A DNA stretch of 64,000 nucleotides, from positions 124,001-188,000 of the forward strand of contig NZ_CALMZC010000015.1 in assembly GCF_937873765.1 (NCBI RefSeq), read 5' to 3'. The notes below the pieces were generated by a model. That model saw only the letters and a program-made list of their open reading frames with translations. It made no database searches and was not told the DNA's origin. This stretch comes from an uncultured Thiothrix sp. (GTDB taxonomy: Bacteria > Pseudomonadota > Gammaproteobacteria > Thiotrichales > Thiotrichaceae). Position numbers and translations under genes: made by a program. This document shows positions 18,146-25,134 of the stretch, piece after piece (the first letter of the stretch is position 1; each line of letters opens with the position of its first letter).

Positions 18146-19081
18146 GTGTTGGTTTTGTGTAAGTGTCTGAGTTTCCGCTTAAGTACTTGGCTGTTGTTAG
18201 CTTGCTTAGTTTTAGGCTTGGTTTTTCCCTTGGCCTATGCTCAGTCTGCAACTACGCCAACAGCCAGTAGACTCAGCTTAAATGCGCCAGTCATTGATCA
18301 GACTAGGACGCTGAATACTGCAGAAATAGCGGCTTTAGATGCCAAGTTGCGTGCTATCCATCAAGCAGGGCGCGCCCAAATAGCGATTGTGCTAGTTCCG
18401 TCAACAGGTAGTGAGAGTACTTTTGATGCAGCGATGCGCTTGGCAGAACAATGGAAACTGGGGACAGCGCAGCAGGACAATGGCCTATTAATCTTCGTAG
18501 CGGTGCAAGATCGACGTGTACAAATACTCACTGGTTATGGTTTAGAATCAGTGCTGCCAGATGTCATCACGAGTCGAATTATCCGCGAAGAAATGACTCC
18601 TGCTTTTCGTGAAGGTGATTATGCAGGCGGTTTAAACGCTGCCGTGGAGCGGCTTGAGCAGATTTTGCAGTTAGATCCGGAACTTGCTAAATCTCAAGCG
18701 ATGCAAGCCCAAGATCAAGCACATGAGCAACTCGCTGATCCATTTGCGAATCTTTTTGGCATGGGTATTTTTTTATTCGTGATCGGGCAGTTTTTACGCT
18801 CATTTTTGGGACGTTTTATTGCAGCAACAGTGGTTGCTGGGCTTGCCTTCTTGGTGGGTTCTAGCGTGTTTGGTTTGTCTGTCTTGCTATCTGCGATGAT
18901 GGCTGTTGTCCTATTTGTACTACTCTTTATCGGGATTGGTACAGGTGGAGGTCGTGGCGGTGGGCGCAGAGGGGGGGGATTTATTTTTACCGGCGGTGGT
19001 GGCGGGCGCTACGGAGGTGGCGGTGGGTATAGTGGTGGTGGCGGCGGTTTTGGTGGTGGAGGAGCGTCTGGGTCATGGTAA
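18146..19081 (+). CDS. TPM-domain (YgcG-type) membrane protein with Gly-rich tail
   Basis: 311 residues with a GTG start one base after the lemA stop. Signal peptide (to about residue 33), then a TPM domain (about 48-180) including VIDQTRTLNTAEIAALDAKL, DNGLLIFVAVQDRRVQI and GYGLESVLPD. Two or three membrane helices follow (about 205-270), and the tail is almost pure glycine with Arg, Tyr and Ser, ending SGSW. Such tails are usual in this family. Likely acts with LemA at the cell envelope. It overlaps the next TPM gene by seven bases. Confidence 0.9.
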   Translation: MLVLCKCLSFRLSTWLLLACLVLGLVFPLAYAQSATTPTASRLSLNAPVIDQTRTLNTAEIAALDAKLRAIHQAGRAQIAIVLVPSTGSESTFDAAMRLAEQWKLGTAQQDNGLLIFVAVQDRRVQILTGYGLESVLPDVITSRIIREEMTPAFREGDYAGGLNAAVERLEQILQLDPELAKSQAMQAQDQAHEQLADPFANLFGMGIFLFVIGQFLRSFLGRFIAATVVAGLAFLVGSSVFGLSVLLSAMMAVVLFVLLFIGIGTGGGRGGGRRGGGFIFTGGGGGRYGGGGGYSGGGGGFGGGGASGSW

Positions 19082-19608
19082 GGCAAACACAAAATCCAAT
19101 AGCCGCAAACCCTAGCTTTAAGCGCTGGTGGAAACATGCTATCTATATGCCTTGGCTGACTGCGCGCTATTTTAATAAGACGAACCTAGATGAAATTGAG
19201 CAAGCAGTGCAGGCTGCAGAATTAGGTCATGCCGGTGAGATTGTGGTGATTATTGAAGGCAGTTTACCTTTTAATCAAGCTTATTATATCAACACCCAAG
19301 AGCGTGCTTTAGAGCTATTTGGCCAGTATAAGGTTTGGGACACCGAATACAATAGCGGGATGTTACTGTATGTGAATATCTGTGAGCACCGAGTTGAATT
19401 AGTCGCTGATCGTGGTATCCATCAATTTGTTATGCCGGAGCATTGGCAAACGCTTTGCGATCAGATAACTACAGAGTTTACTCAAAGCAGGTATGCCTTA
19501 GGTGTATTAACGGGGGTGAAACTGATTGGCCAGACTTTACAGGCTTTCTATACTGTTAAACTCCAAGAAATGGAGAATGAACGTAGCAATCGGCCTCTGT
19601 TGATTTAG
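19075..19608 (+). CDS. TPM-domain protein (second copy)
   Basis: 177 residues. A TPM domain fills most of the chain: LDEIEQAVQAAELGHAGEIV, YNSGMLLYVNICEHRVELVADRGI, and the closing segment that includes TGVKLIGQTL. No signal peptide or obvious helix, so it is probably cytoplasmic or associated with its partner. Its start lies inside the end of the preceding TPM gene, completing a lemA-TPM-TPM operon. Its last 53 bases overlap the 3' end of the convergent radical SAM gene. Confidence 0.85.
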   Translation: MVRQTQNPIAANPSFKRWWKHAIYMPWLTARYFNKTNLDEIEQAVQAAELGHAGEIVVIIEGSLPFNQAYYINTQERALELFGQYKVWDTEYNSGMLLYVNICEHRVELVADRGIHQFVMPEHWQTLCDQITTEFTQSRYALGVLTGVKLIGQTLQAFYTVKLQEMENERSNRPLLI

Positions 19609-20968
19609 CAGGGTAATTGTCTGCGGTAAGTCCCAACGCCTTTTGAGTATTCGCTATATTATTGCGAATCTCATGCTGTAAGCGTTCCAGAATGACAGGT
19701 ACGTCTTTTTCCCAAGTGCTCGGCCATTGCACTTTGTCTAGGGTGAAATGCATCGGATCATCGCCCCAAGTTGTGTCAAAGGGCAGTTCAGTAATCGTAA
19801 ATTCGCCATTATCAAAAGGTAGTCCACTGGCTTGGCGTTTCATACTGAGATGCTCACGGATACCATGTGCAGCATTTACTAGGGAACGATGATGACAGTA
19901 AGGATTATTCCCGCGCTTATCAAAGAACACATGCGCCGTCCAATTACAAGCGCCACGACAAAGCTCAGCAAAATCACAAGTCTTACAAAAGCCCCATAAA
20001 TGTGCGGTAGCTTCTGCTGTACCCGCATTCAAATTGAAGGTTAGTTCTTCGCGTTCGGTCAATATTTCTGCCAAAGAGTGATCACGAATATTGCCACCTG
20101 AGTAAGCTGACGTGGGTAAAGACGGGCAGGCTTTAATAATCCCGTCCGCCTCAATGCCAATCGTCGCTAAGCCCGCAGAACAACCGCGCCAAAACGCCCA
20201 TTCATTATTCTTGCGCCCGAAACTCCGTAGTAAGCGATCATAAGGGCCGTAATAACCGAAATTATTCCCCGGCTGGACAATCAAACCTTCGTGATGACCG
20301 CGTTGCGCTAAATAAGCGAGAAGCGGATGAAAGTTGATAAGCTCAGCAGGTTGCAGCAGCATGTCTGAATTATCGGCTGCATTACCCATCGGAACTGTCA
20401 TTTGAATTTGCCAAGCTTGTGCACCGGCTTTTAATAAAGCCTCATATAGCAATGCAAATTCTGGGGCAGAATACCGATTCACTTGGGTATTTGCCCCAAA
20501 GGGAATGCCCACAGTGCGCAAATGCTGCATAGTTGTAAACGCTTGTCGCCATGAGTCGAGTTTGCCACGCAAACGATCATGCGTGGCTTTCATCCCATCC
20601 ACCGACACTGAGATTTGATTAATCCCCGCTGCTTTCATGCGTTCTGCGGTCGTTAGGCTAATGCCATAGCCACCCGTTGTCATGGAGCAGACCATACCTG
20701 CCTTTACAATCTCGCGCGCAATCTCTAGCCAATCCTTGCGTAGATAGGCTTCACCACCAATCAGCGTCACTTCAGTGATACCTGCATCGGCCATTTGATG
20801 GACTAAATCGAAGGCTTCTGCAGTACTTAGTTCATTTGAGCGGGCATCACCCGCCCGTGAACCACAATGTGTACAAGCTAAATTGCATTTGAGAGTAATT
20901 TCCCACACTGCATAGCATTTACGTTGGCGAGGTCGATAAGCTTGCGAAGACGATAGTGCGGTTTCCAT
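19556..20968 (-). CDS. Radical SAM/SPASM peptide maturase
   Basis: 470 residues. The radical SAM cluster motif CNLACTHC (C28, C32, C35) is followed by the usual glycine-rich strand VTLIGGEAYL and a (beta-alpha)6 core. The C-terminal SPASM region has cysteines in FCKTCDFAELCRGACNW and NPYC for auxiliary iron-sulfur clusters. Enzymes of this class modify ribosomally made peptides or proteins. The gene lies 34 bases after a peptide gene with four QPVYG repeats on the same strand, its likely substrate (inference). No exporter or protease gene is adjacent. Its 3' end overlaps the convergent TPM gene by 53 bases. Confidence 0.92.
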   Translation of the reverse strand: METALSSSQAYRPRQRKCYAVWEITLKCNLACTHCGSRAGDARSNELSTAEAFDLVHQMADAGITEVTLIGGEAYLRKDWLEIAREIVKAGMVCSMTTGGYGISLTTAERMKAAGINQISVSVDGMKATHDRLRGKLDSWRQAFTTMQHLRTVGIPFGANTQVNRYSAPEFALLYEALLKAGAQAWQIQMTVPMGNAADNSDMLLQPAELINFHPLLAYLAQRGHHEGLIVQPGNNFGYYGPYDRLLRSFGRKNNEWAFWRGCSAGLATIGIEADGIIKACPSLPTSAYSGGNIRDHSLAEILTEREELTFNLNAGTAEATAHLWGFCKTCDFAELCRGACNWTAHVFFDKRGNNPYCHHRSLVNAAHGIREHLSMKRQASGLPFDNGEFTITELPFDTTWGDDPMHFTLDKVQWPSTWEKDVPVILERLQHEIRNNIANTQKALGLTADNYPAKSTEADCYVHSPFLGV

Positions 20969-21002
20969 TAGCGTTCTCTATTTTTATGGTTAGCTAAGCG
21001 CT

Positions 21003-21485
21003 TTACTCTTTATTATTTACTATTTCTTTAGGTGTAGTTTGCTGACTACTACCTAAAAAATCAGCACTGATACCACCATAAACAGGTTGAGCCTGATTGT
21101 CTCCAATGGGATCAATCACTGCGCCATACACCGGTTGTACGCCACCATCATCAATTGGGTCGATCACCACGCCGTAAACAGGCTGGATAATCGGATCGTC
21201 AATGGGATCAATCACCACGCCATACACCGGTTGGATAATAGGATCATCAATGGGATCAGGTTTAGGTGTTGGTTTTGGATCAGGTTTGACAGGCTTATCA
21301 GTTAACTGCGCCAATAACTGCATTAAAAGTTGCAGGATAAGTTGTTGCAGGTTATTGCCTGTGTCGAAGGGCTGATTACATCCACTAAATTGATTTAAAC
21401 GCTGCCCTGCTTGTAAGGTTTGTGCTTGTGTATCAGGTTGGCGGGGTAGGATGGTATTTTGCCCGCGTCTCGTTTGAATATCCAT
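21003..21485 (-). CDS. Repeat-containing RiPP-like precursor peptide
   Basis: 160 residues. No signal peptide. Residues 1-62 are a Gln-rich, partly helical leader with a single Cys (C36). A Pro/Lys/Asp spacer follows (64-78). Residues 79-142 are four 16-residue units with QPVYG at 85-89, 101-105, 117-121 and 133-137; the first two units are identical in protein sequence. A short polar tail closes it. The layout (leader, spacer, repeated aromatic core) and the radical SAM/SPASM gene just downstream indicate a ribosomally made, post-translationally modified peptide. The start is fixed by an almost perfect Shine-Dalgarno sequence. Confidence 0.85.
   Translation of the reverse strand: MDIQTRRGQNTILPRQPDTQAQTLQAGQRLNQFSGCNQPFDTGNNLQQLILQLLMQLLAQLTDKPVKPDPKPTPKPDPIDDPIIQPVYGVVIDPIDDPIIQPVYGVVIDPIDDGGVQPVYGAVIDPIGDNQAQPVYGGISADFLGSSQQTTPKEIVNNKE
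21060..21251 (-). repeat. Four tandem 48-bp units coding for 16-residue repeats
   Basis: Encodes residues 79-142 of the precursor-like peptide. The units keep QPVYG and IDP/IDD while synonymous positions differ between copies (for example the codons for the PVYG block), suggesting selection on the peptide and not a recent duplication. Confidence 0.85.
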
Positions 21486-21488
21486 TTC

Positions 21489-21498
21489 TCACCTCCTT
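21489..21498 (-). promoter_or_regulatory. Strong Shine-Dalgarno of the peptide gene
   Basis: On the minus strand AAGGAGGTGA lies directly before the ATG at 21485, with the core GGAGG six bases from it. It is nearly fully complementary to the 16S 3' end and the strongest site seen in the window, consistent with high expression of a precursor peptide. Confidence 0.8.
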
Positions 21499-21715: not shown

Positions 21716-22441
21716 ATGCAAAATATGCCAATTGAAAAAATAGCTGTCGTTGACGATGATGCTATTACTCGTTTTTTAATTGGTTCAGCTCTGCGTGAGC
21801 ATCAGATGGAGGTGTTTGAATGCGGAAGTGCTGAAGAGCTGTTTGTGTTACTGGAAAAACAGCGGATTGATGTGATTATCCTCGATATGGTTCTTCCCCA
21901 AGTGAATGGTTTGGATGCTTTGACCTATGTACGTGAACAGTCCGATGTGGGGGTTATTATGATTTCATCGCGTGCCAATCCTCAGCAGCGGCTGTACGGT
22001 TTACGTGAGGGAGCTGATGACTTTATTAGTAAACCGGTACTAACCGATGAGCTGGTATTCAAGGTGAGATCGTTGGCCTTGCGGGTTAGCCATCAACATG
22101 GGATCACCGAGCAACAAGACTTGATGGTGGGTAACTGCCTATTAGTACTGGATGAGGGGTTGCTAGTGAGGGTCGATGAGGAGAATCATTGTGCTTTGAC
22201 CGAAGCAGAGCAACGTATGTTGACCCTATTAGTTCAACATCAGCCGCAGGTCTGTAGTCGTAAGCTGTTACTCCAATGCATTAGCCGTTCTGAAATCAGT
22301 TTCAGTAACGACCGTAGTATTGACACCCTGATCAGTCGTATTCGTCTCAAGTTACGCCAACTGGGTTGTACCCTTTCAATCATTTCGGTACGGGGACAAG
22401 GGTATCGCTTACAAGATGACCTGCCAAGGTGTAATGGCTAA
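21716..22441 (+). CDS. OmpR-family response regulator
   Basis: 241 residues. Receiver domain (about 8-120) with acidic pocket D13-D15, phosphoacceptor D57 in ILDMVLPQVNG, and K106 in FISKP. The C-terminal winged-helix DNA-binding domain (about 135-235) ends VRGQGYRL. A nearby ATG at 21725 is an alternative start; neither has a strong ribosome site. It converges on, and overlaps by four bases, the hybrid kinase gene. That kinase ends in an Hpt domain, so it is the likely partner, as in TorS/TorR-type relays (inference). Confidence 0.92.
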   Translation: MQNMPIEKIAVVDDDAITRFLIGSALREHQMEVFECGSAEELFVLLEKQRIDVIILDMVLPQVNGLDALTYVREQSDVGVIMISSRANPQQRLYGLREGADDFISKPVLTDELVFKVRSLALRVSHQHGITEQQDLMVGNCLLVLDEGLLVRVDEENHCALTEAEQRMLTLLVQHQPQVCSRKLLLQCISRSEISFSNDRSIDTLISRIRLKLRQLGCTLSIISVRGQGYRLQDDLPRCNG

Positions 22442-25134
22442 AGCTTTTGATGCTGGACAGTTAAAACGGCAAGTTGTCGAGTAATCAGGACTTGAAAGCT
22501 GCTCCACTCAGGCACAGGTGCATGTTCCTGAAACGTTTCGAGTTGCAAAGCAGCATCTGCGTTACGGTGCAAACCTAGTGCGTGGCTAGCACTGACAATA
22601 CGGTGAGCCGCCACACGTAGCTTGTTTATGTCCTGCTCCTTAGCGGCTTGTTGAATGCGTGCAATATCTTCCTGTAATTGTGCTTGATAGAGTCCCAACA
22701 CTTGCGCGACTTTCTCATCGCCTAAGCGCTCTTTGAGATGGCTGAATGTGTTATCTTCTAAAGTATTGCTTTGGTTGTCTGGTGCAGACTTTTGCAAGGA
22801 AGCTAGCAATTCGGTAGGGGTATAGGGCTTCGCCAAACAGGCATCAGCGCCCATTGAAAGCAGGTGATTACGCTGTTGTGTATCGAAATGAGCGGAAGTC
22901 ATCACAACCCGCAGCTCAGATGGGTTATATCGTTGGCGCAGCGCGGCCAGTAAAGCAAAGCCATTCATTCCTGGCATTCGCACATCACTGATCACGGTAT
23001 TGAAGGTTTGCTTCTGTAAGAGCTTGAGCGCTTGTCTCGCGTCTTTAGCTTGGGTAACGGTATGCCCTACAGCGGCCAGCAATTCATAGGTAATCATCCG
23101 GTTACTGGGAATATCATCGACGACCAATACCTTGAGCGGTTTGCTGTTTTCCCTGTTTGGGGTCGCTAGTTCTGGGTCGGTGGTCGTGGGTAGGTTCATT
23201 TTCAGGTAAAAGTGGGCTTGAGTGCCTTGTTCAAGCTGGCTATCCAGCGACAAATGTCCGCCTGCTGCTTTAATCATTTCAAAGCAAATGGGTAAACCCA
23301 GCCCGGAGCTAGCATCTTGGCTATACAAGGATTCCACACCAAGGTTAAAACGTGCCTTGACCTGCGCCAATTGTGCGGGCGACATGCCTCGTCCGGTATC
23401 CTCCACTGTAATATGCAGTTCATGGCGGTTAGCCAGCCAACGTGCTGAGACCTCAATCATGCCGCTGTCGGTATATTTGATGGCATTGCTGATCAGGTTA
23501 ATCAACATCCGCCGCAAGACAATGGGTTTGCCCATCAAATACTTGGGGAGTTCACGAGTATGCAGATGGAGGGTCAATTGTTTTTCTTCAGCGCGGTTGC
23601 GTAACAGGTTGATCATGGCTTCCAGCAGAAACTGTGGGTTAAAGGTGGTATTGTTATCGGTGATCTCTGCCTGTTTAGCTTGAGTGCGATCTAGTAAATT
23701 ATCCACCAGCGCATACATGGACTCGGCTGCATAATGGGTGGTGCTCCAGTAATCTTTTTGTTTATCGGATAGGGCAGTACGCCCTAATAGGGTGGTTGAG
23801 CCGAGCATGGCATGTAGCGGGGTGCGGATTTCATGGCTGAGGGTAGAGATAAATTTCTCCTGTTGCTCCATACGTAGTTCGGCACTCTCACTCGCTAGCT
23901 GAGCGCTATCTCTGGCTGCTTGTGTGTCTTTGATAGCGATGCCTAAAGCAATAGAGAGCAGCACCATTTCTAGAGCCGCCGCCAGTAGAGCGTAGGTCAT
24001 TCCTAACCCATGCAGATTCATGATGACTTGGCCATCCAAAATGAACAAGATATGGCCAATAATCAATGCCGTCCACGCCGCCAAGAATATCCAAGCGGGT
24101 TTGTAGCCACTAAGAGCTACTACTAGGGATAGTAGGGGGATCAGTAGGATACAGCCTAGATAAATGAAGGGATAAATTCCGGCGACTTTTGCTTGGCTAG
24201 CAGGGTAAAAGCTGGCGGTTAGCAATATCCCTAGCATAAACACGATAGCCAGCCAGTTGAGTGAAATGATAGCTTTTACTAGGATGAACAGAGGTTTTTT
24301 TGTAGAGGACTGATGTAAAGAGCTGATACCCGGCTGCATGAAACGTAGCGCGAATAATATAAAAAAAATTGCGGTAAGGGCACCAATGCCCCATAGGGTC
24401 TGGCGGGCATTGCCCAGCAGGTTGCCCAACGGTTCAGGGTTAAAGTGGAATCCTATTGCAACGATTAAGTGCATCACGGCATACCCGATATAAATCAGGT
24501 ACATGCTGTCACGTAGCGGTAGATACAACAGCAAGTTGTATAAAATCAGGCCGATAACAGCACCCATTCCAAGGAGGGCTAGGGTGGTTTTTAGGTTAGA
24601 TTCCCATACCATCTTGGCATGAGGCACTAGACTGATTCTGATGCCATCGAACATGGAGGTACGCCCCCGTTGCAAGAAGCCACAACGAGTATTTGGGGGC
24701 AAGTTGATGGGAATAAAATAGGCGCTTGCCAGCGTCGGGCTGTCCAATCCGAGGGTAGGGCGTGGGATAGCTTGCAAAGACTGACCTTGGCAATGCAAAT
24801 AAAAATCTAGTTCGCTGTACAATGTGTGATCAGAGCGGATAGCCCACTGCGCGGTGGTGCTACGGTTGATCAGCGGGATGTAAAACCAATATTGCTTGCC
24901 TGCTGCAAGCAGTGGGTCGGATTGAAAGTCTGCTTGATCCATACGCCTAACCACCGTTTCAGGACTCAAGCGGTTATCGGGGTCATTCAGGCGGAGTGTT
25001 TCCTTGGATAAGCCAATACTATACGCCTGCAAAAAATCATCGGTGACTTCCAAGGCAAGGGCTTGCCCGCACACCATCGACAGTAGCAGATATAGCAATA
25101 GAACGACAAGTTGCCGAGTAATGGGATGAGTCAT
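22438..25134 (-). CDS. 7TMR-DISM hybrid sensor histidine kinase with REC and Hpt
   Basis: 898 residues. Order: signal peptide (1-27), periplasmic DISMED2-like sensor (about 30-175), seven membrane helices (about 183-402), coiled linker, HisKA with H434 in SHEIRTPLHAM, HATPase with NLISNAIKYT and EDTGRGMS, receiver with D717 in ISDVRMPGMNG, and a C-terminal Hpt with H844 in AAHRIVSASHALG. This is a full four-step phosphorelay in one inner-membrane protein. DISMED2 domains are thought to bind carbohydrate-like ligands; the ligand here is unknown. Convergent with the OmpR-type regulator. Confidence 0.95.
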   Translation of the reverse strand: MTHPITRQLVVLLLYLLLSMVCGQALALEVTDDFLQAYSIGLSKETLRLNDPDNRLSPETVVRRMDQADFQSDPLLAAGKQYWFYIPLINRSTTAQWAIRSDHTLYSELDFYLHCQGQSLQAIPRPTLGLDSPTLASAYFIPINLPPNTRCGFLQRGRTSMFDGIRISLVPHAKMVWESNLKTTLALLGMGAVIGLILYNLLLYLPLRDSMYLIYIGYAVMHLIVAIGFHFNPEPLGNLLGNARQTLWGIGALTAIFFILFALRFMQPGISSLHQSSTKKPLFILVKAIISLNWLAIVFMLGILLTASFYPASQAKVAGIYPFIYLGCILLIPLLSLVVALSGYKPAWIFLAAWTALIIGHILFILDGQVIMNLHGLGMTYALLAAALEMVLLSIALGIAIKDTQAARDSAQLASESAELRMEQQEKFISTLSHEIRTPLHAMLGSTTLLGRTALSDKQKDYWSTTHYAAESMYALVDNLLDRTQAKQAEITDNNTTFNPQFLLEAMINLLRNRAEEKQLTLHLHTRELPKYLMGKPIVLRRMLINLISNAIKYTDSGMIEVSARWLANRHELHITVEDTGRGMSPAQLAQVKARFNLGVESLYSQDASSGLGLPICFEMIKAAGGHLSLDSQLEQGTQAHFYLKMNLPTTTDPELATPNRENSKPLKVLVVDDIPSNRMITYELLAAVGHTVTQAKDARQALKLLQKQTFNTVISDVRMPGMNGFALLAALRQRYNPSELRVVMTSAHFDTQQRNHLLSMGADACLAKPYTPTELLASLQKSAPDNQSNTLEDNTFSHLKERLGDEKVAQVLGLYQAQLQEDIARIQQAAKEQDINKLRVAAHRIVSASHALGLHRNADAALQLETFQEHAPVPEWSSFQVLITRQLAVLTVQHQKL

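Follow-up and report, generated by a model that had tools for sequence, protein, structure and literature searches.

A probable four-site spliceotide cassette, with an LPR element in the precursor leader, in an uncultured Thiothrix

What does a radical S-adenosylmethionine (SAM)/SPASM enzyme do when its gene follows one for a peptide that carries the residues QPVYG four times over? The question is raised by a two-gene unit in a stretch of 64,000 nucleotides (the window) from an uncultured Thiothrix sp. (GCF_937873765.1, contig NZ_CALMZC010000015.1, positions 124,001-188,000 of the forward strand; coordinates below are positions in the window). On the (-) strand, an open reading frame (ORF) at 21003..21485 encodes a 160-residue repeat precursor with four QPVYG, that is Xaa-Tyr-Gly (XYG), sites, and the gene for a 470-residue radical SAM/SPASM enzyme follows at 19556..20968, with 34 bases from stop to start. 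ORFs and coordinates agree with the original prediction as to the peptide, its 16-residue QPVYG period and the spacing to the enzyme gene, and the strong Shine-Dalgarno that it noted is present as AAGGAGG at 21492..21498 (-), 6 bases before the ATG. We consider the pair, with a probability of roughly 80%, to be a four-site spliceotide cassette in which tyramine would be excised at each XYG. Splicing is inferred here from the enzyme family and the site, and the reaction itself is taken from the literature on the splicease PlpX.

The enzyme, its precursors and the XYG site

Compared with NCBIfam, the enzyme scores best with TIGR04103 ('nif11-class peptide radical SAM maturase 3'; 703 bits, E 8e-212), the runner-up being the GDL-motif peptide maturases of TIGR03913 at 383 bits, which is 320 bits lower and does not reach that family's cut-off of 592. 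A branch supported at 100/99 divides a tree of 43 enzymes: the window enzyme, its family relatives, the myxobacterial enzymes and a homologue from a plasmid of Nostoc sp. C057 (NZ_CP040288.1) lie on one side, and nine GDL-like and other more distant relatives on the other. The Nostoc enzyme is 66% identical to that of the window and, at 853 bits to TIGR04103, stands above the cut-off. It is the score margin and the phylogeny, not the cut-off, that place the window enzyme in the TIGR04103 (PlpX-type splicease) clade. Three radical SAM cysteines (C28/C32/C35, in a CX3CX2C cluster motif at 20864..20887, -) and seven SPASM cysteines (263, 281, 328, 331, 337, 341 and 358; 19895..20182, -) are invariant, and the enzyme model resembles SkfB, anSME, SuiB and other SPASM enzymes, which supports the fold only. 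PlpX, a splicease that excises tyramine at Xaa-Tyr-Gly, has been placed in IPR026482 (PMC11002830). The original prediction could name no described family for the repeat; the enzyme belongs to the splicease clade, and what stays constant in the repeat is the XYG at which spliceases act.

Recognition through a RiPP recognition element (RRE; RiPP, ribosomally synthesised and post-translationally modified peptide) was rejected because no such domain lies in or beside the enzyme: the enzyme has no Pfam PqqD match, and the one PqqD gene in the genome adjoins another radical SAM gene on a different contig. Viral contigs held distant radical SAM genes only. Nine genes for related maturases, with 43-54% identity to the Nostoc splicease, lie in a single delta-proteobacterial genome (L026, G465).

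Enzyme and precursor occur together. Among the 63 genomes of the family set the enzyme is found in 12, and a real precursor, adjoining the enzyme each time, in exactly those 12 and in 0 of the other 51; weak precursor matches in G059 and G060 cover the model partially, inside ORFs of >600 residues, and were not counted as real. Besides Nostoc, 33 of 33 clade enzymes adjoin a precursor with an [LFM]PR element, 31 of these having XYG and two XYA. Together with the family score, this pairing bears out the proposal of a RiPP-type precursor with a radical SAM/SPASM maturase, and the observation singled out in advance as telling against it, a homologous maturase of the clade that lacks such a peptide, was not made (33/33 enzymes; 12/12 genomes).

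Within the window precursor, QPVYG recurs with an exact period of 16 residues at 85-89 (21219..21233), 101-105 (21171..21185), 117-121 (21123..21137) and 133-137 (21075..21089), all (-), the fourth being followed by Gly. When the precursor's own residues were shuffled 20,000 times, no shuffle contained any 5-mer four times. Repeat units 1 and 2 share all 16 residues despite differing at 9 of 48 bases, which indicates that the repeat is maintained as protein sequence. No known domain covers the repeat region, and the structure model of the precursor is of low confidence (predicted local distance difference test score, pLDDT, 49), that of the repeat region very low. Two more QPVYG-like DNA matches elsewhere in the genome were discarded as unrelated reading frames without a repeat.

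The 12 genomes with the pair provide 43 XYG sites, at which Tyr and Gly are unchanged in 43/43 and X is V at 37 sites, I at 4 and L at 2, as splicing predicts, since it requires Tyr-Gly and tolerates X. The proposal that the Tyr of each PVYG is the likely target is thereby strengthened. The natural sites of PlpX are MYG and LYG, and the tags tested with it include GGPIRPLYGLPI and its GYG variant (PMC10533398); a single precursor can undergo splicing at several sites (PMC10373908). The window context, IIQPVYGVVI, has the same layout as the tag GGPIRPLYGLPI. Both known PlpX sites recur among the precursors examined, LYG in L018/L070 and MYG in L022 and L090, beside RYG in L023, L027, L091 and L103 and KYG in L096, while short Myxococcota precursors have DYG, KYG, RYG or IYG, mostly preceded by GG. 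The highest number of sites, ten XYG, mostly as PLYG, is found in a Myxococcota precursor (L102:3-1406, G568) that was recovered with a profile of the leader element; its enzyme was the only one that had seemed to lack a precursor. Overall, X is nearly uniform within many taxa; from one taxon to another it varies (V, R, K, M, L). In two Myxococcota loci, L098 and L105, the ORF directly upstream of the enzyme has the same leader and GG, with SARYALPP in place of XYGLPP; these natural YA variants could tell whether Gly is required.

Clade membership, XYG constancy, adjacency and the 12/12 co-occurrence are the reasons for which we favour a four-site spliceotide over a cross-linked multi-ring RiPP. 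In the proposed mechanism, a leader with a conserved [LF]PR element would dock on the enzyme, and the splicease would cut most of each Tyr from the chain and rejoin it, which would leave four reactive ketone sites. The mass change computed for splicing is -135.07 Da per site and -540.27 Da over four, as against -2 Da per cross-link. The unmodified precursor has a computed monoisotopic mass of 17,405.9 Da, and trypsin would leave its four sites together in a single peptide of 13.3 kDa.

The leader element and the PlpY question

All Thiotrichaceae precursors examined have [LF]PR near the N-terminus, and in the window protein a helix is predicted after it. The element spans residues 12-33 (ILPRQPDTQAQTLQAGQRLNQF; 21387..21452, -) and is proposed as an enzyme-docking or PlpY-like segment; L13, P14, R15, Q20, A26 and L30 are invariant in seven Thiotrichaceae precursors, and the low-confidence model has a leader helix at residues 20-31. 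A second predicted helix, Leu/Gln-rich (residues 45-62; 21300..21353, -; sequence comparison and model), stands ahead of the proline-rich repeat region. In every myxobacterial precursor [LFM]PR precedes the XYG sites. The enzyme of Nostoc C057 is flanked by a Nif11 precursor, whose sequence ends ...GSIALYGLPPELF, and, directly after the enzyme, by a 71-residue protein in which the LPR element is found (PLLPRSGWQDEQAFLRAIIRAKQALDM); from its position and size, we infer that this protein is PlpY. An unannotated ORF of Nostoc sp. UHCC 0926 holds a close copy of the element. On plasmid pn1 of that strain (L081:4902-6954), the ORF for the free LPR protein runs to 5108. The long ORF after it opens with a Nif11-like leader that has GG at its end, and then passes into an apparent sensor-type protein; no splicease match was found on pn1 at E 1e-20.

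The LPR link was first spotted by eye and then tested with profiles, hhalign and shuffles. In a ranking of 10,102 non-training sequences by a profile built from eight leaders of the myxobacterial type, the Nostoc 71-residue protein comes first (E 0.001; best shuffle 1.7). With hhalign, the myxobacterial W-type leaders match the PlpY-like Nostoc proteins at 95% and E 5e-8, a result reached by 0/100 column shuffles, and 1/100 shuffles was as good as the match between the Thiothrix leaders and the W type; short Myxococcus leaders gave no link to the PlpY-like proteins. By these comparisons the PlpY-like proteins are clearly related to the myxobacterial W-type leaders, and weakly, no more than suggestively, to the Thiothrix leaders.

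PlpY is said to be too small to adopt an RRE fold (PMC12710340), as would suit a short helper element. The LPR leader element may stand in for a separate PlpY partner, an idea that we advance tentatively, as rather less probable than its opposite. Equally tentative, and judged to fall somewhat short of even odds, is a broader proposal, according to which PlpY and the leader would be the same [LF]PR-helix module, held within the substrate in Thiothrix and myxobacteria and free in cyanobacteria, the products being ketoamide inhibitors of proteases, self-activating and multi-headed, with as many as ten sites. The module would dock on the splicease or switch it on, X would be a changeable P1-like position, and in cyanobacteria Nif11/NHLP leaders would have taken over.

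Spliceotides inhibit proteases (PMC11117315, PMC10373908). Given this published inhibition and the pattern of X, nearly uniform within many taxa and different between them, as is seen in protease inhibitor families, the window product could be a multi-headed protease inhibitor with X as its specificity residue; X, placed at the ketoamide, would correspond to an inhibitor's P1 residue. We regard this function as possible but doubtful.

On a practical level, spliceases install ketone-bearing beta-amino acids in proteins and are already in use for labelling; the tool described requires both PlpX and PlpY, and its limitation is that splicing is slow and depends on the site. If a partner element is indeed borne by the substrate, then its combination with four sites (elsewhere up to ten) would make a simpler tool and would explain the job of PlpY. 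Such a cassette would also bring sulfur bacteria and myxobacteria, whose multi-site substrates are uniform, into the likely range of proteins with beta-amino acids.

Points against splicing, alternatives and known systems

Several points weigh against the spliceotide assignment. The enzyme lies 22 bits under the curated cut-off of TIGR04103 (703 vs 725), and the step from PlpX to that family takes IPR026482 to be the InterPro entry of TIGR04103. The precursor has no Pfam or NCBIfam leader match and no Nif11/NHLP leader. In published accounts PlpX acts together with PlpY. Beside the pair, the Thiotrichaceae neighbourhoods examined hold no separate PlpY-like gene, and the best match to the Nostoc partner protein in the genome had an E of 1.28 only. 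The hhalign match of the Thiothrix leaders to the PlpY-like Nostoc proteins, as good as which were 0/100 shuffles, spans nine columns only. The missing PlpY gene argues against the PlpXY type rather than against membership of the splicease enzyme family.

The alternative that survives best is that, in a neofunctionalised branch, the enzyme performs some other radical SAM reaction on XYG, for example Tyr Calpha-Cbeta cleavage or backbone oxidation without rejoining, or epimerisation. It would accommodate the score below the TIGR04103 cut-off, and relatives with more distant enzymes have different precursors, DUF1843 peptides among them; however, the XYG site is shared by Thiotrichaceae, Myxococcota and Nostoc, and the above-cut-off Nostoc enzyme nests inside the clade in the tree, so that we consider this alternative unlikely. 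The GDL-motif maturases (TIGR03913), which occur with DUF1843 peptides, are sister radical SAM/SPASM enzymes, ~45% identical, and some of their peptides hold PYG; unlike in the window, no LPR element or XYG repeat was seen beside the nine more distant relatives examined. DUF1843 peptides adjoin GDL-type maturases at L034:3317-3529 and L033:3153-3866, some with PYG or LYA near the N-terminus, possibly a relic of an XYG-like site.

Aromatic cross-linking, the multi-ring product foreseen in the original prediction, would join each PVYG Tyr to a neighbouring side chain and give four rings at -2 Da each. The invariant Tyr suits such a reaction, and SPASM enzymes of other families perform it: triceptide and other cross-linking maturases share the radical SAM and SPASM fold and act where an aromatic residue stands in a repeated motif. 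Their family scores for the window enzyme are far lower, the DynA-type (cyclophane/cross-link maturase) family reaching just 55 bits, and the enzyme lies in the splicease clade. Furthermore, the Gly after Tyr, invariant at 43/43 sites, is needed by splicing but unexplained by a ring. YG is followed by V, A, G, S, T or M. At 7/43 sites, including site 4 of the window, this residue is Gly; with no Cbeta to link, a ring from Tyr to the Cbeta two residues on is impossible there. Cross-linking or cyclophane chemistry was rejected on the family scores and the Gly at the link position, and appears very unlikely. That an ordinary proline-rich repeat protein merely neighbours an enzyme acting on something else, as the domainless repeat region with its very-low-confidence model might suggest, is scarcely credible in view of the 12/12 co-occurrence, the 0 real precursors in 51 genomes and the adjacency held in Thiotrichaceae, Myxococcota and Nostoc.

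Taken as a splicease cassette, the pair can be set beside the described systems. It resembles PlpX (WP_019503880.1) and PlpY (WP_019503879.1) of Pleurocapsa sp. PCC 7319 (plp cluster) in enzyme family (IPR026482, taken as TIGR04103) and in having XYG sites with hydrophobic X in a proline-rich surround, several of which are possible per precursor. The window cassette departs from plp in lacking a Nif11/NHLP leader and an adjacent epimerase; a separate PlpY-like gene was not found, and the long proline-rich repeat domain belongs to a two-gene cassette. The Nostoc C057 locus shares the enzyme type and has ALYG in its core, but differs in its single XYG site, its Nif11 leader and its LPR segment, which is a separate protein after the enzyme. 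The chemistry and the enzyme family are already known. A splicease survey of 2022 reportedly records spliceases across bacteria; in the literature outside that survey, we did not find the present layout described (proline-rich multi-XYG domain, no Nif11/NHLP leader, LPR in cis), a provisional statement as the layout may be known.

Neighbouring genes and minor features

No conserved third gene (protease, exporter or PlpY) was found within ~9 kb of the pair in the 12 Thiotrichaceae neighbourhoods, the remaining shared matches being antisense reading frames opposite the pair. Consequently any export or trimming would depend on genes farther away; alternatively, the product may remain on the protein, as had been surmised when no protease or exporter was seen beside the pair. 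Promoter and terminator scans of the gene strand gave nothing above chance. A divergent response regulator and 7TMR-DISM hybrid histidine kinase (21716-25134) adjoin the pair and are not conserved there in relatives.

Thiotrichaceae enzymes have a C-terminal helical extension (residues 417-444; 19637..19720, -; comparison and model), near the start of which the Nostoc enzyme and most myxobacterial enzymes stop. The C-terminus of the window enzyme is ~14-25 residues longer than in relatives, and the 3' end of its gene (19556-19608) overlaps a convergent TPM-domain gene (19075-19608) by 53 bases.
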